64,000 nucleotides of DNA, from NCBI RefSeq assembly GCF_000019665.1, contig NC_010794.1, positions 744,001 to 808,000 of the forward strand, given 5' to 3'. Below, one piece after another: positions 1,288 to 44,183 of this stretch; the first letter of the stretch is position 1, and the number at the start of each line of letters is the position of its first letter. This DNA comes from Methylacidiphilum infernorum V4 (lineage in GTDB: Bacteria; Verrucomicrobiota; Verrucomicrobiia; Methylacidiphilales; Methylacidiphilaceae). Under the pieces are notes generated by a model. It had not been told where the DNA came from and did no database searches. It saw only the letters and a list, made by a program, of their open reading frames with translations. The position numbers and the translations under genes were made by a program.

Positions 1288-1995
1288 ATGAACGTTGCGA
1301 TGGGTTCAATTCTTGTAGCTGCGGGACAGAGCCGGCGCATGGGTTTTGATAAAATATTTAAGGCTTTTTCCAACGGGTTTTGTCCTTTAGAAATCTGTCT
1401 TTGTAGGATAAGTCGATCGCCCCTAGTTGAACAGATCGTGGTCGTGGTCTCTAAAGAGAATGTTGAAAAAGCAAAAGGAAAAATTTCAACTCTCTCTTTG
1501 GATAAAGAGATAACCGTTGTTGTTGGGGGTAAAGAAAGACAGGATTCTGTATATCAAGGATTATTGGCTTTAGATCGAAAATGTCGCTATGTCATGATCC
1601 ATGATTCGGCAAGACCGTTTATCAATGAAGAGCTCATTGAGAAGGTTTACCAGGCCGCCGTTGAAGTCGGGGCCGCGGTTTGCGGGAAGCCCTGTTCGGA
1701 TACTCTAAAAGAGGTGGATCCCGATGCCAAGGTGCTGAGAACCTTGGATAGGAGTAAAATATGGACGGTTCAAACTCCGCAGATTTTCCGCAGGACATTA
1801 CTCGAAAAAGCCTATTTAGAGCTCCATGCCCAAAGGAAGCTTGTTACCGACGATGCTTCGGCCATTGAACTTCTAGGCGAAGCGGTAAAGGTCGTCCCTT
1901 ATACGGGCACAAACATAAAGATGACCTTTCCGGAAGATTGGGAAGTGGCAAACCTCCTCATCGAAAACAACAGGCTTTCCCATCAAAAGCCGTAA
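1288..1995 (+). CDS. ispD: 2-C-methyl-D-erythritol 4-phosphate cytidylyltransferase
   Basis: The 235-residue protein shows the full IspD motif set: N-terminal nucleotide-binding loop AAGQSRRMGFDK, then GGKERQDSV, IHDSARPF, DTLKEVD, a WTVQTPQIF segment, TDDASAIE and the closing NIKMTFPEDWEVA. IspD transfers CMP from CTP to MEP in the non-mevalonate isoprenoid pathway, which feeds undecaprenyl phosphate (compare uppP later in the window). It starts 32 bases after the MCE gene and may share its transcript. Two in-frame ATGs (1288 and 1300) are possible; neither has a convincing Shine-Dalgarno. Length and motif spacing are normal for the family. Confidence 0.93.
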   Translation: MNVAMGSILVAAGQSRRMGFDKIFKAFSNGFCPLEICLCRISRSPLVEQIVVVVSKENVEKAKGKISTLSLDKEITVVVGGKERQDSVYQGLLALDRKCRYVMIHDSARPFINEELIEKVYQAAVEVGAAVCGKPCSDTLKEVDPDAKVLRTLDRSKIWTVQTPQIFRRTLLEKAYLELHAQRKLVTDDASAIELLGEAVKVVPYTGTNIKMTFPEDWEVANLLIENNRLSHQKP

Positions 1996-2309
1996 TGCCT
2001 ATCCCATGGAGGGTTTATTTTATTTCCCTATGGAGAGTATGTCGCCTTAAGAAAGGATTATACTTTCTCAGCTCTATTTTCCCTTGCTGCTGTTTTTTGT
2101 TCTTGGTTCCGTAATAACGGGAAGCGGGCTTTCCAAGTGCTTTTGCTTCCGTACATTCGAGGATAATCTGTTCTCTTGGCATCCCTTAATTATTATTTTT
2201 TGAAAAGCGAGTTGTCAATGTCCAGAATGAAAAGAAAAGAGAATCTTTTTTTATTCCTTAAAAATCGGATAATTTTTATTAATCTCTCATTATGGAAAAA
2301 GGGGATAGT
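1996..2309. other. Intergenic region, no gene recognised
   Basis: About 300 AT-rich bases separate ispD from the CHAD gene. Only short open frames are present. Two modest inverted repeats are visible: AGAAAG/CTTTCT near 2052-2072 and GGAAGC/GCTTCC near 2120-2152. Neither is followed by a convincing T-run. The region presumably carries the 3' end of the ispD transcript and the promoter of the CHAD gene, but no clear -35/-10 pair could be assigned. Confidence 0.4.
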
Positions 2310-3194
2310 ATGAAAATACAGGACCATCTCCCCGTAGTTTTTTGGGATAAGGCTTCTGAAAAGCTCTTAAAGTGGAAAAACCCGGAAAATTTTACCGACA
2401 AGATCCACGATCTCAGGGTATTAGGTAAAAAATTACGCGCTTTATATTATTTTTTTCAACCCCTTCTCGGCAAGGATTTTGTAAAGGGAGAAAAGCAAAA
2501 AGTCAAAAAAGCGATGTCCGATCTTGGAGCGGTAAGGGATTCCCATGTTTTTTTAAATATCTATAGAAAAATTGAACAGCAATATCCGAGGCTTATCCTT
2601 CCCAAGTCTCTCAAGACTCTTTTGGAAAGACGGTCCCAGCAATTAGAACAAGACCCGATGCTTGGAATAGGCAAAAGCTTGGGGACTCAAAAATACTTGG
2701 CTTTAGCCATGGATAGGATCTTGGCTGCAAGAGAAAAACTGCTTAAGAAGATCGCCGCAAAACCTTTTAGCAAGCAATTGGCCTTAGACAGGATGAAAAA
2801 AGGTCTTGAGGCGGTGACGAAAACGATGAAAGAAGCGCAAAAAGAAGGATCTGCCGATTCTTTTCACCGTTGGAGGATAAAAACCAAGCGATTTTATTAT
2901 CACTTGAGCCTTTGTTGGCATGGGAACGGTTCCAAGGAGTTAGAAAAAATCGTTAAAAAATTTAAACAGCTGGAGCAACATCTTGGACAGGCACACGATT
3001 TTCACCTCCTTGCCTCCTTTATAAATAGTTCTCATCCAGGGGACTTGAGGGATGGGCAAAAGGATGCCTTTAAAGAATTTCTCTTGTTGATCGGTAAGCT
3101 TCAAGAGGAGGAAGAAAAGGAGGCTCTTTGCTTGGCCAAGAAGCTCATGGACCGCGGATTGGAGGAAACGATAGAGAAAATTTTCAATCCATAG
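2310..3194 (+). CDS. CHAD domain protein (polyphosphate-associated)
   Basis: This is an almost entirely helical, Lys/Arg-rich protein of about 295 residues. It carries the conserved-histidine helices of the CHAD domain: HDLRVLGKKLRALYYFF near the N-terminus, then HRWRIKTKRFYYHLSL and HLGQAHDFHLLASF in the second half. CHAD domains bind polyphosphate and localise to polyphosphate granules (family knowledge). The presence of a PPK2 gene 3 kb downstream fits that role. I prefer the ATG at 2310, because GGGG at 2301-2304 gives it a Shine-Dalgarno; an in-frame ATG at 2292 lies 6 codons upstream. No CYTH domain is fused, so this is a stand-alone CHAD protein. The last 11 bases overlap the end of the convergent NamZ-like gene. 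Confidence 0.85.
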   Translation: MKIQDHLPVVFWDKASEKLLKWKNPENFTDKIHDLRVLGKKLRALYYFFQPLLGKDFVKGEKQKVKKAMSDLGAVRDSHVFLNIYRKIEQQYPRLILPKSLKTLLERRSQQLEQDPMLGIGKSLGTQKYLALAMDRILAAREKLLKKIAAKPFSKQLALDRMKKGLEAVTKTMKEAQKEGSADSFHRWRIKTKRFYYHLSLCWHGNGSKELEKIVKKFKQLEQHLGQAHDFHLLASFINSSHPGDLRDGQKDAFKEFLLLIGKLQEEEEKEALCLAKKLMDRGLEETIEKIFNP

Positions 3195-4476
3195 ATCGGT
3201 CGGTGAGGATTTTTACCTTTTTAGCTTTTTTTATAATGATTTTTTCTTTTCCAGGCTGTGGATAAGGATAAAGAAGGTAGTTTTTTCTTAGGGATAAAAA
3301 AGAGCTTAATTCGGCATCCCACCTTTGGGCGATAGACTGGGGAGATTTATAGCGGGCCAATTCAGTGTGAATCAAGGGACTTCCATACACTTTGAAAAAG
3401 AGGTTTCTTTGTGAAAACGAGGACCTGCTGTAAGGACTAGGAGTAGCCATTTGGTTTACCCTAGAGGTAATGAAAACGCCAAGGGCGGTAAGATTTGCGG
3501 GCGTTTTGGGGTCGATCTGGAGTTCTACGCCATAAAGCCCGTTGATGATCCTGGGAACGGCGAGTACTCCGGCTAAATTCAACGCATTGATTTCACTGGC
3601 AAGTCGATATCCATCAAGACCTTTTGTCGCTACGAGCCTAAAGGCTTCGGGTGTTCCTGTTCCCAGTTCCATTCCTGCAAGGCTGCCTATGAATCCGGTT
3701 ACGACATAATAAACGGGGGTATCTTCCCTGGGAATATTGGGCGAGGTAGGAATCCAACGCAAAGCGGTATCTTTCCATGTCATCGACCGGTTCCATCCCT
3801 TCAGGGGAATAACGTGCAGCTCGCAGGGATGCGATATAAATCCCCTTTCGTTAGCCATCTGGGCGATTTCTCCCACAGTCATTCCATGGACATAGGGAAC
3901 GGGAATAAAACTGACAAAAGATTTCCAACTGGGGTGGACCAAGGGTCCTTCAACGCGTAGCCCGCCCAGGGGATTAGGCCTATCGAGAACGTAAAAGGGG
4001 ATTCCGGCTTCTCCGCAGGCATCCATTGCACTCACCATGGTGCTGACAAAAGTATAGCTCCTGCAGCCGATATCCTGGACATCAAAGACCAGGGCATCCA
4101 GGTCCCTAAGCATAGCCGGGGTGGGTTTTCTTGTTTCCCCGTAAAGGGAATACACTTTTAACCCCGTCAACCTGTCCTTGTGGGAGGGAACATCACGGCC
4201 GGCCTTGATTTTCCCATCGATGCCATGTTCCGGAGCAAAAAGCCTGACCAGTTTTACTCCCGGTGCTCTTTGCAGTATAACCCGAGTGGCTTTGCCATGG
4301 GAATCGACTCCACTTTGATTGGTGATCAGTCCGATCCTTTTCCCCCTTAAAGGGGCGAAGTTTTCTTCTCTAAGAACGTCAATGCCCAAAAGCACTTCGG
4401 CATGGAGACAAACCACCGGACTGGCTAGAAAGATCAGGCAAAAAAAAGAAAGCCGTTTTAGGGCAGCCCTCTGCAT
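3184..4476 (-). CDS. DUF1343 / NamZ-like exo-beta-N-acetylmuramidase, exported
   Basis: From the ATG at 4476 the protein has about 430 residues. It starts with a typical signal peptide (KR then a hydrophobic run ending in CLHA before EVLLG). The mature part opens with GIDVLREENFAPLRGKRIG and carries ITNQSGVD, FAPEHGI, FDVQDIGCRSYTFVSTM, LDRPNPLGG and YVHGMTVGEIA, which are the hallmarks of DUF1343. Characterised members (NamZ, GH171) remove terminal N-acetylmuramic acid from peptidoglycan fragments. A periplasmic role in wall turnover or recycling is therefore likely. The frame extends upstream to a TTG at 4512, but the ATG has a GGGAT ribosome-binding motif just before it and gives a cleaner signal peptide. 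The 3' end overlaps the convergent CHAD gene by 11 bases. Confidence 0.88.
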   Translation of the reverse strand: MQRAALKRLSFFCLIFLASPVVCLHAEVLLGIDVLREENFAPLRGKRIGLITNQSGVDSHGKATRVILQRAPGVKLVRLFAPEHGIDGKIKAGRDVPSHKDRLTGLKVYSLYGETRKPTPAMLRDLDALVFDVQDIGCRSYTFVSTMVSAMDACGEAGIPFYVLDRPNPLGGLRVEGPLVHPSWKSFVSFIPVPYVHGMTVGEIAQMANERGFISHPCELHVIPLKGWNRSMTWKDTALRWIPTSPNIPREDTPVYYVVTGFIGSLAGMELGTGTPEAFRLVATKGLDGYRLASEINALNLAGVLAVPRIINGLYGVELQIDPKTPANLTALGVFITSRVNQMATPSPYSRSSFSQRNLFFKVYGSPLIHTELARYKSPQSIAQRWDAELSSFLSLRKNYLLYPYPQPGKEKIIIKKAKKVKILTDRSMD

Positions 4477-4645
4477 TATCCCTATTTTTCTTGAAGCATA
4501 AAATAAAGACAAGCCCTATTTTTATGTTAGATTGAGGGATAAAACTTGAAATTTTAAAAGAGCTATTAAAAACTAACCTTCAAGCTGATCCTTTTTATAT
4601 TATGGGTAGAGAAAAGGGGATGATGAACTTCACCCCCTTCAAAAA

Positions 4646-6367
4646 ATGAACCACTTTAAAAAGAATGCTTTAAGCCGGATTATCGCCTATTTTTCGATGG
4701 AAATTGCCGTCGATGAGAGGATCCCCACCTACAGTGGAGGCTTGGGGGTTCTGGCGGGAGACACCCTGAATGCTGCGGCGGCCGTCGGATTTTCCATGGT
4801 CGGAGTCTCTCTTTTATACCGTAAGGGCTACTTCTTTCAAAGAATTGATGAAAAGGGAATCCAGAGAGAAGAACCGGTGGAATGGATCGTGGATGATTTT
4901 CTCGTAGAACAGCCCCCGCGGGTGAAAATTCGGTTAGAAAAAAGGGAAGTCACTCTTCGGGCCTGGCTTTATGAAATTAAGCACAATGATCATACAGTCC
5001 CCGTCTATTTTCTCGATACGGATTTAGCCGAGAATGACCCTTACGATAGAACTTTAAGCGGGTTTCTTTATGGGGGGGATGAGCGCTACAGGCTTTGCCA
5101 AGAAGCCGTGCTTGGTATTGGTGGGGTAAAGATGCTGCGCGCCCTGGGGTATGAAAAAATAGACAGATTTCACATGAACGAGGGTCATTCCAGTCTTCTT
5201 ACCCTAGAGCTTTTACGAGAGCAGATGGCTGCAGTGGGCCATGAACAAGCCAGTTGGGAAGACATCGAAGCGGTAAGATCTCTTTGTGTTTTTACTACCC
5301 ACACTCCTGTAGCTTCAGGCCATGATAAGTTTCCCCTTGGCCTTGTAAAACAGGTTCTGCCTTTTTTCCCTGTCCATGGGGAATTGCGGGATATTTTTTG
5401 TTGTGGGGATTTTCTCAACATGACCTATTTGGCCTTAAACCTTAGCCATTACATCAACGGGGTCGCCAAGAGGCACTCGGAAGTCTCTCGAATGCTTTTT
5501 TCTCATTATGAAATCGACGCCATAACCAACGGGATCCATGTTCCATCCTGGCTAAGTAGCCCCATTCAAAAGCTCTTTGATGGGTATATCCCGAGATGGA
5601 AAGAGGACATCTTTAGCATTCGTTATGCTATTTCCATCCCTTTGAAAGAGATCTGGGAAGCTCATTTGATCAATAAACGACTGTTGTTGGATTTCGTGAA
5701 CCGAGAGAAAAATATGGGGATGGATATCGACAATTTTACCATCGGTTTTGCACGAAGAATGACCGCTTATAAAAGACCCGAACTGATTTTTACCCGCTTG
5801 GAAAGGTTAAATGCCATTGCCCGCTCCGTTGGTCCAATCCAGTTGATATTTGCAGGTAAGGCCCATCCCAAGGACGAGGAGGGAAAAAAGATCATTCAGA
5901 GGATTCATGCCATACGCCCTTCCCTTGTTCCTGAAATTAAACTCGTTTTTTTGGAAAACTATGATTTGGCCTTGGCCAAAAGAATCGTGGCCGGGGTTGA
6001 CCTATGGCTAAATAATCCCCAACCGCCCTTCGAAGCTTCGGGAACCAGTGGAATGAAAGCGGCGATCAACGGCGTTCCTTCCTTGAGTGTGCTTGATGGG
6101 TGGTGGATAGAAGGCTGCATTGAAGGGACGACCGGTTGGTCTATTGGCATGGATGTTTTCCAACTCAAAGAAGCAAAAGAGGGGGATTACAGCAACGACC
6201 GGGATGCCATGGCCCTTTACGACAAGCTTGAAAAGGTCATCATGCCCATATTTTATAAAAATCCCGAAGCCTATGCTTTGATCATGCGCTCCTGCATTGC
6301 CATTAATGGTTCTTTTTTTAATGCCCAGCGCATGCTTATGCAATATGTGCTAAAAGCTTATTATTGA
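4646..6367 (+). CDS. glgP: Alpha-glucan (glycogen/maltodextrin) phosphorylase, short form
   Basis: The 573-residue protein opens with [20 protein letters not shown], typical of the short alpha-glucan phosphorylase family rather than the ~830-residue muscle type. It retains [33 protein letters not shown] and the cofactor site [14 protein letters not shown], where Lys471 should hold pyridoxal phosphate. The enzyme releases glucose 1-phosphate from stored glucan with inorganic phosphate. Its stop codon shares one base with the ATG of the PPK2 gene (TGATG), so the two are translationally coupled. The intergenic region towards the divergent NamZ gene (4477-4645) should contain its promoter. Symbol glgP is used in the broad family sense. 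Confidence 0.9.
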
Positions 6368-36749: not shown

Positions 36750-36907
36750 TCCAGTTTATTAAAATGCAAATATATAAAAAGCAAGCAATATTCAATCAAG
36801 GTTGCCAATGGCATTTTAATTAATAAACTTAAAAGAAATAATTCATGACTTTTCTCTCTAATTTTTTTTAAATTACCAGAGCGGGATACAAACATATTTT
36901 TTTGACT

Positions 36908-37699
36908 ATGAATTTAGACTTCTTTTTATATTATCGTTTACTTTTTTGGGCGGCAGCCGTGGAGGAGGGGACGGCAAAATCGATAACCGTCTTTGATCTT
37001 CTCAAATCCGGAGGATGGGTCATCATCCCCCTTTTTTTTATCTCTTTTCTCGTAGTCGCCTTGATATTCTATTATTTTATTTCCATCCGCATTTCTGCCG
37101 TGTGGACAAAGGATCTCGACAGGAGGGTGGAAAATGCCCTCCGGAAAGGGGACTTGTCCTTGGTTTCAGAAGCAATTAAAAATCGATCTGAAGGCTGTGC
37201 CCGCCTTTTAAAAGAAGTGATCGGTTTTTTATCGAAACACAAGGATGCCGACCTTCATTCGGTCATCTCGGTATCCGAGGCTTTTGGAAGTGGGTTTGCT
37301 TCACTGCTCAACCAGCGGATCCTTTACCTGCTCGATGCGGGTGTTATTGCCCCCATGTTGGGTCTTTTTGGCACGGTGGTGGGGATTTTAAGATCATTTG
37401 GTTCGATCGCCGCCGAACCCTCTCCCATGAGGACGCTGTTGCTTGCCGGTGGGGTTTCACAAGCCCTTGTCTCTACGGCTATCGGGCTTATTGTGGGCAT
37501 TACGGCCATGTTCTTCTATTCTTTCTTTAGGGGCAGGGTCCAGTATCTCATTTCTGTTTTTGAAGAGCGGTCCGCCTTATGGGTACAAGAAATTTTTCTT
37601 TTGAATAAAAAATATTTAAGTAAGTCTTCCACCGAACTGAAAGCGGTTGCTTCTTCGCCTTTTGACGAGGGCGAGGACAACGAGGAACACAAAGAATAA
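36908..37699 (+). CDS. MotA/TolQ/ExbB-family proton channel protein
   Basis: The ~263-residue protein has an N-terminal hydrophobic segment, a second helix (WVIIPLFFISFLVVALIFYYF) given here as residues ~39-59, a cytoplasmic domain and the paired C-terminal helices of the family. Those helices hold the signature GVIAPMLGLFGTVVGILRSF and ALVSTAIGLIVGITAMFFYSF (positions ~150-210). ExbB/TolQ pentamers conduct protons and energise TonB- or TolA-type partners. The Thr in GTVVG and the Thr in STAIGL, which line the channel, are retained. ATG 36908 is preferred over TTG 36902. The extra N-terminal segment is unusual for TolQ. Confidence 0.92.
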   Translation: MNLDFFLYYRLLFWAAAVEEGTAKSITVFDLLKSGGWVIIPLFFISFLVVALIFYYFISIRISAVWTKDLDRRVENALRKGDLSLVSEAIKNRSEGCARLLKEVIGFLSKHKDADLHSVISVSEAFGSGFASLLNQRILYLLDAGVIAPMLGLFGTVVGILRSFGSIAAEPSPMRTLLLAGGVSQALVSTAIGLIVGITAMFFYSFFRGRVQYLISVFEERSALWVQEIFLLNKKYLSKSSTELKAVASSPFDEGEDNEEHKE

Positions 37700-37720
37700 A
37701 AGAAAGGTCCCTTATAGCCT

Positions 37721-38149
37721 ATGAATTTTAGAAAAAGAGTAGCCACAGAACAAATAGGATTGCAACTGGCTCCTATGATAGATGTCATCCTGTTTTTGCT
37801 TTCCTTTTTCCTGTTGACCTGGAATTTGGCTAGATACGAAGCGGATCTCGAGGTGAAAATCCCAAAGGCCAAAAACGGAGAATTGCCCAAAAGACTTCCC
37901 GGAGAAGTCATCATCAACATAACCAAGGATGGCCAAGTCAATCTCAATCGGAGGGTGGTGTCTGCGCAGGAACTGGAAGAAATCATAAAAGGGGTGATTC
38001 AACAGTACCCGGACCAGGCGATCATTATCCGTGCCGATGAAGATACCTCTTACAAAGAAGTCATCAAGGTCTTGGATGTGTGTCGTGGAGTAAACGCTTG
38101 GAACATAGCCTTTGCCACGAACCGGCCGGATATGACCTCTTCCCGATAA
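37721..38149 (+). CDS. ExbD/TolR-family proton channel protein
   Basis: The 142-residue protein has one membrane helix near the N-terminus containing the essential aspartate (LAPMIDVILFLLSFFLLT). A periplasmic domain with VIINITKDGQVNLN and IIIRADEDTSYKEVIKVLD follows. This is standard for ExbD/TolR, which pairs with ExbB/TolQ to use the proton gradient. The gene lies 21 bases after the ExbB-like gene. The periplasmic domain is expected to dimerise and to bind the TonB/TolA-like partner or peptidoglycan. Confidence 0.93.
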   Translation: MNFRKRVATEQIGLQLAPMIDVILFLLSFFLLTWNLARYEADLEVKIPKAKNGELPKRLPGEVIINITKDGQVNLNRRVVSAQELEEIIKGVIQQYPDQAIIIRADEDTSYKEVIKVLDVCRGVNAWNIAFATNRPDMTSSR

Positions 38150-38195
38150 AGGATAAGAATGAATACTGGTTTTAAAGTCTCGGTAACTTAAAGGA

Positions 38196-40556
38196 ATGAA
38201 GCTTAGAAAGCTGTCCAGGAACAAAAAATTGGTTATGGGTTTGTTTTTTTCTTTCACGCTTTTTCAATACCTTGGCGTAGAAAGATTGACCTGGGCTCGT
38301 TCTGAAAAAGTCAATCCGTCGATTGAAATTGTTCCTACGGCCGACCTCGAGCTGGATAGAGCGATAGCCCTCTACAGGCAGGGCAGGTATGAAGAAGCCA
38401 TTCGGGTCTTTTACCGGATATTACCCCAGCTATCCCCGGGTAAAAAAACCGAAGCTCTTTTTTCAATGGCCGATTGTTATCGGCTGATAGGGAAAAAAGC
38501 TGAAGCGATCCGAATCTATCAGCTGCTGATTCAAAATGATCCCTCCAGTGCTTTCGTTCCCACAGCCTACTTTTGGGAGGGCAAGCTGTTGTCTGAACAG
38601 GGCGATTTTGCCAAAGCGGCACCAGCCCTCAAGATAGCCGTGGAAAAAGGAGATCCCCAAACCTCCCAGGCTGCAAGTTTTTTTCTCGCCTTGTGCCAGC
38701 TTCAGACGAAGGAAGAAGAAAAAGGGGTTTACAGGTTGCGGGAGCTGGTTGACAAGGCTCCGGATCTTAGAGTTGAGGCTGCCGGGGTACTTGCAACCTA
38801 TTATGAATCGATTTTGGACTGGGCGCATGCTCTCGAATATTGGTCGGTGGTAGTCCGTGAGACGAAGGATCCCCTGGCGAAGTCCAAGGCTTTGGCGCGC
38901 TGCGGTTGGGCAGCTTGGAAATCGGGTCAGCCGAAAGAGGCCGAACGCTTTTTCACCCAGGCTTCCGGAGGCCCCCCCTACACGGAAGGGAACAGGCTTG
39001 CCAACAGTGGACTTTTCCAATTTTACTTGTCTCAAAAAAGATACAAGGAGGCTATCCAATTTTATGAAAAACATAGCAATGGATTTATCGAAACTGAAAA
39101 GGAAAAACTCCTGCTTGACCTGGTCAATGCCTATTTGGAAATTAAAGATTATGCCAAGGCTCTAACCCTCCTTGATTCTTTTATAGCCGAATATCCTCGA
39201 TCCGCCCTTGTTGACCTGGCTGCTTACGAAAGGGTATTGGCCCATTATTATCTAGATAGGAGTTCCTTGGAAACCAATATTGAGCAGTTTTCCTTGCAAT
39301 ATCCTTCTTCTCCCTATCTCTATGCACTTCTTTATCTGAAAGCCGAAGATTACAATAGGACAGGGAGATTTTCACTCGCTCTTCCCCTTTGGGAAAAATT
39401 GGATTCCGTGCATTCTTCATTTGTTTCCCCGGAAGCGATTCTTATGGGCAAAGCCAATTCTAATTATGGGCTTGAAAAGTGGGCCGAGGCAGCTTCTCTC
39501 TACAAAAGTTTTTTAACTGGCTACCCGCATTCCAAGGAAGTGATCCCGGTAAAGATGCACCTTGCCAGTTGTCTTGAAAAAATGGAGGAAAAGAAAGAAG
39601 CCTTGAAATTGTGGAAAGAAGTTCTGCAGGCCCTAAACAAAACAGATCCTGAAAGAGAAACCTGTCTTGAACACGTGGGGGTTTTGGCCTTCGATCTCAA
39701 GGAAGAAAGCCTTGCGGCCGAGACCATGCTGAAGGTGCTGAACGAATACCCCCATTCTCCTTATCGAGGCATAGCGGCATGGATAGTCGGGCAGCACAAA
39801 TATGAAGAAAAACAGTATGAGGCTGCCAAGGAATACTTTTCCCTGGCCCGGGAGGCTGAGCCCGAAAAACTCTATTTAGCGGCTACCTTGATGCTTGCCT
39901 GGATAGCCTATCATCAAGGAGACGTTGAAAAGCTCTGTAGTTATGTCCAGTCTTACGAGGATAATTATAAGAGTGGGGCAGAAACAATTCCCACCGAGCT
40001 TTACTACTGGATAGCTTCTCAACTTCTCAAAAAGGAAAAACGGGAGCAGGCTGCACTTTATTTTAAAAAAGTCGTTCAATCGGCTAATCCCAAGGATAAA
40101 TATTACAGTTCAAGTTTATGGTTGTTGGCCGAAACGGAACGGAAGCTGATGAACTGGAAAGAAGCCAATACTTATTACCTGGAATTTCAGAAATCCGATC
40201 CGAATTCGGCGAGCAACTCCCCGGTTCTCTTGGGATTGGCCGAAACCCAGATTGCCCTGGGACAGTTTGCCGAAGCCCAGAAGAACTTGGAGGAAGTCAT
40301 GCTTAAGGAACCGGAGGGAGAAAATAACGCTAAAGCACGGATGTTGATCGGGGACAGTTATCTTGCTCAAAAAAACTATAGAGAAGCGGCTAAAGCTTAC
40401 ACCACTTTAAGCCTTATTTATCAAGATGATCACATTACCCCAAGGGCGATGCAAAAAGCCGCCTTATCTTTTTCCAAGGCGGGAGATAACGACCAAGCCG
40501 CTTTTTGGGAAAAGAAACTGAAAGAGAAATATCCTACCTTTAAACCGGATGCTTGA
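38196..40556 (+). CDS. Large exported TPR protein of the Tol/Ton-like operon
   Basis: The 786-residue protein has an N-terminal signal-type segment (LVMGLFFSFTLFQYLG, ending near WARSEK). Nearly all the rest is tetratricopeptide repeats from about residue 50 to the end (for example AIALYRQGRYEEAIRVFYRI and KNYREAAKAYTTLSLIYQDD). It sits between ExbD and the TonB-OmpA fusion gene, the position occupied by CpoB/YbgF in tol-pal operons, but is about three times longer. Its stop codon overlaps the next start by one base (TGATG). A scaffolding role in the periplasm is the likely function; the partner is unknown. Confidence 0.85.
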   Translation: MKLRKLSRNKKLVMGLFFSFTLFQYLGVERLTWARSEKVNPSIEIVPTADLELDRAIALYRQGRYEEAIRVFYRILPQLSPGKKTEALFSMADCYRLIGKKAEAIRIYQLLIQNDPSSAFVPTAYFWEGKLLSEQGDFAKAAPALKIAVEKGDPQTSQAASFFLALCQLQTKEEEKGVYRLRELVDKAPDLRVEAAGVLATYYESILDWAHALEYWSVVVRETKDPLAKSKALARCGWAAWKSGQPKEAERFFTQASGGPPYTEGNRLANSGLFQFYLSQKRYKEAIQFYEKHSNGFIETEKEKLLLDLVNAYLEIKDYAKALTLLDSFIAEYPRSALVDLAAYERVLAHYYLDRSSLETNIEQFSLQYPSSPYLYALLYLKAEDYNRTGRFSLALPLWEKLDSVHSSFVSPEAILMGKANSNYGLEKWAEAASLYKSFLTGYPHSKEVIPVKMHLASCLEKMEEKKEALKLWKEVLQALNKTDPERETCLEHVGVLAFDLKEESLAAETMLKVLNEYPHSPYRGIAAWIVGQHKYEEKQYEAAKEYFSLAREAEPEKLYLAATLMLAWIAYHQGDVEKLCSYVQSYEDNYKSGAETIPTELYYWIASQLLKKEKREQAALYFKKVVQSANPKDKYYSSSLWLLAETERKLMNWKEANTYYLEFQKSDPNSASNSPVLLGLAETQIALGQFAEAQKNLEEVMLKEPEGENNAKARMLIGDSYLAQKNYREAAKAYTTLSLIYQDDHITPRAMQKAALSFSKAGDNDQAAFWEKKLKEKYPTFKPDA

Positions 40557-41581
40557 TGAAAACCGAGCCGTTCTCTCCCCTTTCCGTCATTTTAGACAGG
40601 AAAACACTCAGCCTGGCGGTTATTCTTTCGCTCCTCCTTCATTTAGCTTTTATAGTCACCGTCGGACCTCTCCGGATAAAAAACCTCGCGTTGGCTTCCA
40701 CGGCCAAGAAATTTGACAGGAGGCTGGATCTAAAGAGAGCCGAACTTCCCGCTTCCATTTTTCAAGCTCGAGCTGATACCCAAAGCCCCTCCGTGACTCC
40801 CATTCCGGCTCTTGAAGCTCCAAAACAGATCAAAGCCATCAATCCCTTGGTCCAGGATGTTACACAAGCCAATCCCGTGAGGATACCCATGCCTTCCGTT
40901 GTCCCGGGAGGAGCTCCAGAGGTGGCCGTATTATCACCCACTCCTCCCACCGAGGTCAGTCCTTATCAAGAAGATCCCAAGTCCCATTTCCAAACCTTGA
41001 TTTCTCATTTATTGACCGGTCAAACTTCTCCCGGTGTTCCGAATACAAGCAACATCCTGCCTGCCGGACTGGGGCATGACCCGATCCCTGGGGCGAGTGC
41101 ACCGGGTCAAGCCGGAACCCATCCTACGGGGACCAGCGGAGGGGAAGGTATACCTGGAGTGGATGATATTCAAACCCAATTTAAAGCGGCGGCCAATTTC
41201 GATCCTCGCGTTCCCCAACCCGTTGTTTTACGCCTGCCCAGCGATATTCTTTTTGATTTTGATTCTGCAACCATAAAACCGAATGCCGAACCCCTCCTTT
41301 TCCAGGTGTTAGAAATCCTGAAAAAATACAACAGGGCTGATGTTGAGATTGGGGGACACACGGATACTTTTGGCGATGAGATGTATAACTTGCAACTCAG
41401 TGAACAAAGGGCCTTTGCGGTTCAGCAATGGCTAGAAGCCCATCTTCCTCAAGGCATGTATAACTTTCATGCTACCGGGTACGGCAAGAGCCATCCCATA
41501 GTCAATCCACGAGGTTCCATAGAAGAACAGGCGAGGAATCGTAGGGTAGAAATAGTGATTCGGGCCCTGGTAGAAGAATAG
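40556..41581 (+). CDS. TonB/TolA-like anchor fused to OmpA peptidoglycan-binding domain
   Basis: The 341-residue protein has a single N-terminal membrane helix (about 18-37) with Ser25 and His29 in the SxxxH spacing used by TonB and TolA to contact ExbB/TolQ (ILSLLLHLAF). A Pro/Thr/Gly-rich linker of about 190 residues follows. The C-terminal OmpA-like domain (about 225-341) includes LFDFDSATIKPNAEPLL, GHTDTFGDEMYNLQLSEQRA and RNRRVEIVI. Asp270 and Arg285 have the exact spacing of the diaminopimelate-binding pair of OmpA. The protein could link an inner-membrane proton motor directly to the cell wall, combining TolA and Pal roles. Start ATG at 40556 overlaps the TPR stop; no TolB gene is adjacent. 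Confidence 0.85.
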   Translation: MKTEPFSPLSVILDRKTLSLAVILSLLLHLAFIVTVGPLRIKNLALASTAKKFDRRLDLKRAELPASIFQARADTQSPSVTPIPALEAPKQIKAINPLVQDVTQANPVRIPMPSVVPGGAPEVAVLSPTPPTEVSPYQEDPKSHFQTLISHLLTGQTSPGVPNTSNILPAGLGHDPIPGASAPGQAGTHPTGTSGGEGIPGVDDIQTQFKAAANFDPRVPQPVVLRLPSDILFDFDSATIKPNAEPLLFQVLEILKKYNRADVEIGGHTDTFGDEMYNLQLSEQRAFAVQQWLEAHLPQGMYNFHATGYGKSHPIVNPRGSIEEQARNRRVEIVIRALVEE

Positions 41582-41656: not shown

Positions 41657-42220
41657 GTGAAAGTAAAGCTTTTTTTACTTTTTTCCATCTTTTTTTCTCT
41701 TTCTTTTTTAAGTCCCGCTTTCCCTGCTAAAAAAGGATCTTCGACTCCGTCAAACAGGGAAAAACTCTATATTTTGGCCGTTCCCGAAGCCTGGTTCAAC
41801 AGGCCCCCCGAGTTCGTCTTGTCCAGGTATGATTATCTTTCTCAAAGGGATATGCTCTACCAGGAAGCTATCGCCGCTTTTAAAAGGGCTTATCCATCCC
41901 TGGAAGTAAAAAGAATAGACAAGATTACCCAAGCCCAAGAGGGTGTTCCCATTGTCAGGATAGATTTGGGCCGGTGGAGATATTCTTTTATCGGAACAAA
42001 TGCCGCTACCGATATTGTCGTGCGGCTTTTTGCCGAATATTATCCTTCCAAGGGATCGAAAGGGATCCCCCTGGGTTCCTTCGGCAATCTCCAAAGGGCC
42101 CATGTATGGCTTTATGACGGTTACAGGGATTTCAACGAAGATTATCTGAATGCCATTCGACCGGCCCTGGACAAAATTGCCCATGCGGTAGGTCCCCATT
42201 TAAATAGCCAGGGGAAGTAA
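41657..42220 (+). CDS. Exported protein of unknown function
   Basis: The 187-residue protein starts with GTG and has a clear signal peptide (VKLFLLFSIFFSLSFLSPAFPA, cleavage near residue 24, region given as about 3-24). The mature part is mixed alpha/beta, with LYILAVPEAWFNRPPEFV near its start and IVRIDLGRWRYSFIGTN in the middle. No family is recognised. It lies 75 bases after the TonB-OmpA fusion and may belong to the same operon. A periplasmic or outer-membrane accessory role is possible but not shown. Confidence 0.7.
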   Translation: MKVKLFLLFSIFFSLSFLSPAFPAKKGSSTPSNREKLYILAVPEAWFNRPPEFVLSRYDYLSQRDMLYQEAIAAFKRAYPSLEVKRIDKITQAQEGVPIVRIDLGRWRYSFIGTNAATDIVVRLFAEYYPSKGSKGIPLGSFGNLQRAHVWLYDGYRDFNEDYLNAIRPALDKIAHAVGPHLNSQGK

Positions 42221-42395: not shown

Positions 42396-44183
42396 GTGAA
42401 ATATTTCCACCCGATTAAAGAGCTGCTTGTTGTTTTGATCTTTTGCTCCGCTTTCCTTGTCTTTTGGCTTCCTTTGTTGAAAGCCCAAGATGCAGATTTC
42501 GATGCCGGTTTTTGGACATCAAGGATCGTGGATTTTTCCGTGGTGGATTCTTCCGGCTCTACGCAGTGGATCAGGGGAATAGTCTTATCGGCGGATGGCA
42601 AAGTTCTTACCTTGTCGAATGTTTTTGATGGCAAAACGATCAAAGAAGCTAAGAGATGGGATTTTCGCCCCGTTCAATATTCCGGTTGGATAATAAGGGA
42701 ACCTGAGAAAGATCTGCTTTTGATCCAGGTGGAAGGTAAATCCCTTTCGGCCTTGAGGATCGTTTCACAGGATAGCTGGCCTCAAGGAGGAGGATCGGAA
42801 TTTTTCATCCCCACCCCCACTCCTGAAGAACCGAGAAAAATCGGCAAATACTCTCCTATTAAAGAAGGCTTGGAAACGGACAGGGATCACTTGTTCTTTT
42901 CAGGGGAGATTACCGGGGTATTACCGGGCAGTCCCGTCATTAACGAAAAAGAGCAAACCATAGGCATCGTGGACTGGATAGACCCACAGAAAAGACTTTT
43001 GAGAGCAAGATTGTTAAGTGGCCCGTTGGAAATTTTGGATAAAGCCGACAGGCTCATGGAGTTTGCTTTTTGGAAAGAAAATCTTGAAATGATTAGAAAA
43101 AAAGGGGAACTGGATCCCAAGCTTTCTTCTTCTCCCTACTGGGTGAACTTGTGGCAAAGTGTTCAAAAAACCGACATTGAAAAGAATGCGGACAAGCTCA
43201 TAGAAGTTTTTTCAAAGTCCGATGTAGCTTGGGCTACTGCTTCTGCAAACTACTTAAGAATATCCTTGCTTGATAAAGCCGATTTTGCCATTCGAAAAGC
43301 GGCTTCATTGAATGGGGAAGCCGATTACCATTATTCCATTTTGTTCGCCCAGATCATGATCTCCCGCAAGGAATGGAACCCGGCGATAGATGCTTTGCTC
43401 AAGGCAAGAGAGGAGGGGGCCCTTTCCAAGGAAATCGCCTATCCTTTAGGGATCTGTTTATATCAAATCGGCCAATTTGAAAAAGCTGTTGAAGAGCTCA
43501 AGAGTTACGTGGAATCCCGGCCTAGGCATGTCAGCGCCTGGTTGCTGATGGGAGAAATTTTTCAGAAAATGCACCAATGGGATAGGGCTGTCAATGCTTT
43601 TATGAAGGCGGCGAGATTGAATCCCCAATCTGTAAAAGCCTGGGTCGGGATTGCCGAGTCCTATAGTGCCCTGGCTAAATGGGACCTGGCATCGGAAGCG
43701 TACACGGAGCTGAGCCTTCTTGAACCTAAAAACCCTTCTGTATGGTATAACCTGGGTTTGGTCTTGTTGAAAACTGAACAGGAAAAGTTGGCCTTGGCCT
43801 GTTTTTTGCGGGTCATAGAGTTGAATCCAGCCGACCGGGATGGATGGTTTAATTTCGGGGTATTGAGCCAGAAGTCGGGAGAAAGATTGGTTGCTCTCAA
43901 TGCCTACAAAAAAGCGGTGAATATAGACCCTCGTTTTGGCATGGGATGGTTTAACTTGGGTTGTCTTTGTCAAGAACTGCATCTTTATCCCGAAGCCATT
44001 GATGCTTGGCGCAAGGCCGATGAAACCCTCCCCGGGGATATTCGACCTTTAATTAACCTGGTATTCCTGGAAAACCATATCCATGATTATGGGGAGCGGG
44101 ATAGAGATTTAACAAGGTTAGAAAGCCGGGATCCTCGGCTCGCCCAGCAAATTAAATATAAGCTAGTCCATAGCAATCGGTAA
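42396..44183 (+). CDS. Exported protein with degenerate trypsin-like domain and C-terminal TPRs
   Basis: The 595-residue protein begins with a signal segment (about 9-30). The next ~190 residues read like a trypsin/HtrA fold: RGIVLSADGKVLTLSNVF where HtrA has ...VLTNxHVV, then PEKDLLLIQVEG and VLPGSPVINEKEQTIGIVDW where active proteases have GNSGGPLxN...GQVIGI. The catalytic His is replaced (SNV) and the catalytic Ser position reads Pro, so the domain is predicted to be inactive. From about residue 270, seven or so TPRs follow (for example DRAVNAFMKAARLNPQS). It probably acts as a periplasmic binding scaffold. Start is GTG; the true start could be slightly downstream. Confidence 0.75.
   Translation: MKYFHPIKELLVVLIFCSAFLVFWLPLLKAQDADFDAGFWTSRIVDFSVVDSSGSTQWIRGIVLSADGKVLTLSNVFDGKTIKEAKRWDFRPVQYSGWIIREPEKDLLLIQVEGKSLSALRIVSQDSWPQGGGSEFFIPTPTPEEPRKIGKYSPIKEGLETDRDHLFFSGEITGVLPGSPVINEKEQTIGIVDWIDPQKRLLRARLLSGPLEILDKADRLMEFAFWKENLEMIRKKGELDPKLSSSPYWVNLWQSVQKTDIEKNADKLIEVFSKSDVAWATASANYLRISLLDKADFAIRKAASLNGEADYHYSILFAQIMISRKEWNPAIDALLKAREEGALSKEIAYPLGICLYQIGQFEKAVEELKSYVESRPRHVSAWLLMGEIFQKMHQWDRAVNAFMKAARLNPQSVKAWVGIAESYSALAKWDLASEAYTELSLLEPKNPSVWYNLGLVLLKTEQEKLALACFLRVIELNPADRDGWFNFGVLSQKSGERLVALNAYKKAVNIDPRFGMGWFNLGCLCQELHLYPEAIDAWRKADETLPGDIRPLINLVFLENHIHDYGERDRDLTRLESRDPRLAQQIKYKLVHSNR

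Follow-up and report, generated by a model that had tools for sequence, protein, structure and literature searches.

A four-gene ExbB-ExbD operon of Methylacidiphilum infernorum ending in a candidate TonB/TolA-like transducer with an OmpA-type domain

Introduction

All characterised TonB and TolA transducers, to our knowledge, pull on outer-membrane partners. Cryo-EM structures of these systems place a Ser and a His of TonB/TolA in contact with TM1 of ExbB/TolQ, as reviewed in PMC12905483, and the SHLS motif of TonB/TolA helices is used here as defined in that review. The main text of PMC12204202 (2025) describes inner-membrane vWA transducers with TPR, tolQ-like and tolR-like neighbours in PVC bacteria including Verrucomicrobia (Fig. 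4 of that work), and also TolB-Pal fusions and PorE of Bacteroidetes. An inner-membrane transducer that joins a helix to an OmpA domain does not appear to be described in PMC12204202, and the open-access literature on TolA-Pal, TonB-OmpA and TolA-OmpA fusions yielded no published OmpA-ended version. Non-flagellar B subunits are without an OmpA-type extended domain (PMC12505986). Against that background, a transducer with an OmpA end deserves notice when its gene belongs to a non-flagellar motor operon.

Here we describe such an operon in a window of 64,000 nucleotides, the whole stretch of M. infernorum V4 DNA that was analysed; coordinates are those of the window unless a locus is named. A sequence-only reading had taken the operon for a condensed Tol-Pal system, lacking TolB, in which a TonB/TolA-OmpA fusion would link the proton motor directly to the wall.

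Results

The operon lies on the forward strand at 36902–41581; exbB and exbD come first, followed by the gene for a large periplasmic TPR protein and that for the OmpA-ended fusion. The first gene (36902–37699, +) encodes an ExbB/TolQ-family proton-channel subunit (PF01618, 1e-21) of 265 aa from the TTG at 36902 or 263 aa from the ATG at 36908. Its best NCBIfam model is tolQ, with a score of 68.8 bits that lies below the equivalog cut-off, and in the alignment the channel Thr residues are kept, in LGLFGT and LVSTAIG. The ExbD/TolR-family stator subunit (37721–38149, +; 142 aa; PF02472, 7.5e-28) scores best to tolR models and carries the proton-binding Asp in APMIDV, as seen in an alignment with five M. 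infernorum paralogues and with relatives. The third gene (38196–40556, +) encodes a large secreted protein of 786 aa with YbgF/CpoB-type TPR repeats, which match TIGR02795 in four stretches at 158.9 bits (cut-off 90.1); its N-terminus is signal-like, with no lipobox seen. The fusion (40553–41581, +) consists of a transmembrane helix with an SxxxH spacing, a linker and an OmpA domain, as indicated by a PF00691 match (2.9e-16), the alignment and an AF2 model, and has 342 aa from the TTG at 40553 or 341 aa from the ATG at 40556. The intergenic gaps are 21 nt between exbB and exbD and 46 nt between exbD and the TPR gene, and the TPR stop codon overlaps the fusion ATG by one base (TGATG), or by 4 nt with the TTG start. 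Promoter and terminator scans gave no more than shuffled sequences. Open reading frames, domains and conservation in 29 homologues bear out the four-gene order and the fusion architecture of the sequence-only reading, and its residue numbers (Ser25, His29, Asp270 and Arg285) are exact for the ATG at 40556; the corresponding positions from the TTG, used below, are 26, 30, 271 and 286. The genes downstream, at 41657–42220 and 42396–44183, were rejected as parts of the system, being recognised beside the operon only in the same genus; the product of the latter is 595 aa long, with a protease-like look at its N-terminus and TPR repeats at its C-terminus.

The C-terminal part of the fusion (41219–41578, +) is an OmpA-type peptidoglycan-binding domain, matched by PF00691 at 2.9e-16 over residues 233–330. 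The pair that binds diaminopimelate (DAP) in OmpA, here Asp271 and Arg286, is invariant in the 29 fusion homologues. In a profile search the fusion matched PF00691 only, with no TonB/TolA C-terminal domain (PF03544, PF13103 and PF06519) and no vWA domain. The AF2 model was built from only two sequences and has a mean pLDDT of 53; values of 70–86 cover the greater part of the OmpA domain, and a Foldseek search with this domain returned the solved OmpA, OprF and MotB domains (best 3e-8). The fusion sequence shows neither a Cys lipobox nor an outer-membrane anchor.

The helix was analysed in an alignment of 29 fusion homologues across the order, for which per-column entropy was computed. It spans residues ~19–41 (40607–40675, +; LSLAVILSLLLHLAFIVTVG) and contains Ala-22, Ser-26 and His-30, which are its three most conserved positions, with neighbouring columns varying freely. 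His-30 is the sole invariant residue of the N-terminal half of the protein (29/29), Ala-22 is kept in all homologues except one (28/29), and position 26 is Ser in 23 and Ala in 6. The three residues are spaced i, i+4 and i+8 and so fall on one face of the helix, an unusual pattern that, judged from the alignment, is more than chance; the aligned sequences were trimmed around the His-containing helix, and an independent hydrophobicity scan of class-level sequences agrees. The full SHLS motif is not kept in these homologues, the position at His+7 being Phe, Val, Leu or Ser and that at His+11 mostly Arg, His or Lys. M. infernorum has a second inner-membrane-anchored OmpA-domain protein (L019:2336-3271), which adjoins a serine-protease-like gene; its helix has no His, and a transmembrane His is thus not general to inner-membrane OmpA-domain proteins.

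The linker is enriched in Pro, as had been noted from the sequence, albeit moderately so (26 Pro in 182 residues, 14.3%). After the helix, residues 58–64 (40724–40744, +) form a low-entropy block with the pattern F-x-[LV]-K-R-x-E, which is a candidate motor box, or D-box, that may be equivalent to the D-box of TonB; it forms no strand in the AF2 model, which is of low confidence.

Outside the order, class-level homologues have the His in nearly all cases with Ser or Ala at −4, and several stand-alone fusion lineages have replaced Ser with Ala. Within the order, orthologues retain the SxxxH helix, with an invariant His and with frequent replacement of Ser by Ala. Loss of the His is confined to g53 (L097 and L100, from G294 and G291), a distantly related genus within the class, in which the OmpA domain is retained. 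G294 still has a related ExbB-ExbD-TPR triad (L159), and the g53 proteins would offer a natural test of decoupling. A shorter class-level protein, L092, is without the helix.

The locus itself has no TolB, as the sequence-only reading had it, but the genome does: a complete tolQ-tolR-tolA-tolB-pal locus (L012) lies on the same chromosome at C1:2262897-2266831, 1.48 Mb from the operon. It encodes TolQ (TIGR02796, 1.5e-43), TolR (6.1e-24), a TolA-like protein with a TonB_2 domain (5.8e-13), TolB (TIGR02800, 6.5e-85) and Pal (TIGR02802, 1.7e-36) with a lipobox-like AAAGC. The matches are below the strict equivalog cut-offs, yet the classical gene order and the E-values leave little doubt that L012 is Tol-Pal. 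The canonical TolA (L012:4203-4991) keeps the transmembrane His and, unlike the fusion, has Val rather than Ser at −4 (FLLVLAVHFSL). With the M. infernorum TolB as query, TolB was matched in 38 of 40 relatives, the match in one of them (G029) being weak and fragmentary, whereas the Pfam model TolB_N (PF04052), which is nearly blind in these relatives (4 of 40), would falsely suggest its absence. These results contradict the proposal that the operon is a condensed Tol-Pal standing in for TolA-TolB-Pal. That the ExbB and ExbD score best to tolQ and tolR, that the TPR protein is YbgF/CpoB-like and that the OmpA domain is Pal-like would suit it, but with a complete Tol-Pal locus in the genome, TolB nearly universal among relatives and a fusion devoid of lipobox and outer-membrane anchor, we regard it as highly implausible. 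The operon instead looks like an additional envelope machine that exists alongside a normal Tol-Pal. The genome has seven ExbB-type loci or proteins and several ordinary TonB proteins, so that the operon motor is one among several. Where the M. infernorum TolQ has a Pro in TM3, the operon ExbB has Thr/Ala.

Of nine families of the order that were sampled, eight have homologues of the fusion, the exception being f4, and the architecture is both old and conserved. All three genera of f1, the window's own family, carry the genes as ExbB-ExbD-TPR-fusion, as do f8 and f9-g11; f2 and f9-g14 have the set split as ExbB-ExbD plus TPR-fusion, and in a third arrangement ExbB-ExbD-TPR lie together elsewhere and the fusion gene stands alone. 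A phylogenetic profile of the operon showed that the fusion, its specific ExbB and the TPR protein co-occur. Both partners are present in every family that has the fusion. The specific ExbB was present in 32 and the TPR protein in 33 of the 34 fusion-positive genomes of the order, and among the three exceptions are genomes of 68% and of 86% completeness. ExbB and TPR protein were both absent from the six fusion-negative genomes, all of f4; this co-inheritance rests on few independent losses, f4 being a single clade whose genomes are small and in part incomplete. TPR orthologues (E<=1e-30) were found in 39 of 60 relatives and in no f4 genome. Candidates rejected as fusions were the f4 proteins L066, L067 and L070, with a short match and no transmembrane His, and L151–L157 from other classes (OmpA matches, 420–540 aa), with a signal-like N-terminus. 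A contig search with the operon ExbB returned only Methylacidiphilum sp. Yel.

At the level of the class, fusion homologues bearing [SA]xxxH reach several families, and the gene is there mostly alone, away from motor genes. The ExbB E-values are 1e-30 to 1e-52 in 16 genomes with the fusion versus 1e-13 to 1e-29 in 16 without it, two ranges that do not overlap but are only a factor of ten apart at the boundary; the genomes and the fusion-bearing families are related, and the rank-test p value is for that reason not to be taken at face value. The solitary genes, together with the loss of the His in g53, would fit an ordinary inner-membrane-anchored OmpA-like protein with no motor coupling, for which the His and the operon position are incidental. 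Such a protein is improbable in view of a His that stays invariant in 29 divergent homologues in which almost all other helix positions vary, of the joint inheritance with one particular ExbB and the TPR protein, and of a linkage to these partners that recurs in different gene arrangements.

The same ExbB-ExbD-TPR triad is present, without the fusion, in a further class of the phylum (L162, G149; 1566-5032), followed by a 189-aa protein whose start is overlapped by the end of the TPR gene; the triad is thus older or broader than the fusion. In G017 (L062, 2259-5336), ExbB-ExbD, a short ordinary TonB-like protein (SILLH helix) and the fusion lie side by side.

The main rival to a transducer is a static anchor, in which the OmpA domain would serve simply to hold ExbBD or the TPR complex at the wall, in the manner of MotB, and the TPR protein or a TonB would do the work. 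It is favoured by the resemblance of the OmpA domain, closest to those of the OmpA/MotB/OprF type, by the fact that ExbD and MotB bind the wall too, and by the ordinary TonB-like gene between ExbD and the fusion in G017. In MotB-type stators, however, the helix itself supplies the proton-binding Asp, whereas the fusion helix contains no Asp, and hence none of the MotB/ExbD type, and a separate ExbD is present; the invariant His is a transducer residue and not a stator residue; and in the inspected triads to which the fusion is unlinked, no other transducer gene lies directly behind ExbB-ExbD-TPR. We therefore consider a static anchor unlikely, though it deserves more weight than an uncoupled protein.

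Discussion

From the observed genes, their order, the domain fold, the conserved residues, the co-inheritance and the separate Tol-Pal we infer that the operon probably encodes a dedicated machine of Verrucomicrobiae that is powered by the proton motive force and distinct from both Ton and Tol-Pal, and in which the fusion is a TonB/TolA-like transducer coupling ExbBD to peptidoglycan. The link from motor to wall that the sequence-only reading had drawn is the best available reading, because the motor His and the DAP-binding Asp/Arg are kept and ExbB and the TPR protein are co-inherited; the coupling itself is a deduction. A more tentative proposal, for which the chances are slightly less than even, is that Ton and Tol are joined in Verrucomicrobiae by a third trans-envelope machine driven by protons, which applies inner-membrane energy directly to peptidoglycan.

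In the transducer reading, ExbB and ExbD would form the inner-membrane proton motor, and the N-terminal helix of the fusion may dock on ExbB through its SxxxH face, by analogy with TonB and TolA. The extended linker would cross the inner periplasm, and the OmpA domain would grip peptide stems that contain meso-DAP in the wall. A periplasmic partner may be found in the secreted TPR protein, comparable to CpoB, which links Tol to wall synthesis. The wall itself would then be what the motor acts on or is anchored by, in place of TolB-Pal or a TonB-dependent receptor, presumably with transmission of force. The purpose could be remodelling of the wall, coupling of the wall or of inner membrane to wall in growth or division, or alternatively positioning of the TPR protein.

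The tight operon, the A/S/H face of the helix, the lack of a His in the helix of the second OmpA-domain protein, the invariant Asp/Arg and the fold of the OmpA domain, the retention of the ExbD Asp and the ExbB Thr pair, the co-inheritance, the closer ExbB of fusion-bearing genomes of the class and the separate tol-pal locus all appear to favour a transducer. What seems to count against it is that only half of SHLS is kept, that the TM3 Pro is absent from the ExbB, that some lineages have changed Ser to Ala and g53 has lost the His, that the putative motor box is simply a conserved segment and that few independent losses lie behind the co-inheritance. If the transducer reading is true, the wall itself is a possible target of an ExbBD motor, and the helix that binds the motor is a module to which evolution has joined various periplasmic ends (TonB fold, vWA and OmpA). 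The reading also assigns genes that would otherwise be anonymous to a set of partners open to testing (the specific ExbB, ExbD and the TPR protein), in a phylum to which acidophilic methanotrophs belong.

Compared with known systems, the fusion resembles TolA and TonB, with their TolQR or ExbBD, in its single N-terminal SxxxH helix, Pro-containing linker, C-terminal globular domain and ExbB-ExbD neighbour, and differs from them in that it ends in an OmpA domain, is missing the Leu and the second Ser of SHLS, and has no TolB or receptor target. With Tol-Pal the operon shares a TolQ/TolR-like motor, a CpoB-like TPR protein and an OmpA/Pal-type domain, but it is without TolB and a lipoprotein Pal, and a full Tol-Pal is present separately in the same genome. 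A single N-terminal helix joined to an OmpA peptidoglycan-binding domain is also the plan of MotB, PomB and MotS, from which the fusion is set apart by an SxxxH in place of the proton-binding Asp and by ExbD being a separate gene. Like PorE and the TolB-Pal fusions described in the main text of PMC12204202, it merges Tol-Pal domains in one protein with an OmpA-type end; PorE is there an outer-membrane lipoprotein with CpoB, TolB, carboxypeptidase and Pal parts, in contrast to the inner-membrane helix with a motor-contact motif of the fusion. The closest precedent, as far as the main text of PMC12204202 describes them, is the inner-membrane vWA transducers, which have the same TolA/TonB-like topology, a non-TonB C-terminal domain and TPR and tolQ/tolR-like genes nearby, whereas the fusion has OmpA as its end, one exbD rather than a tolR-like pair, and half of the SHLS motif kept.
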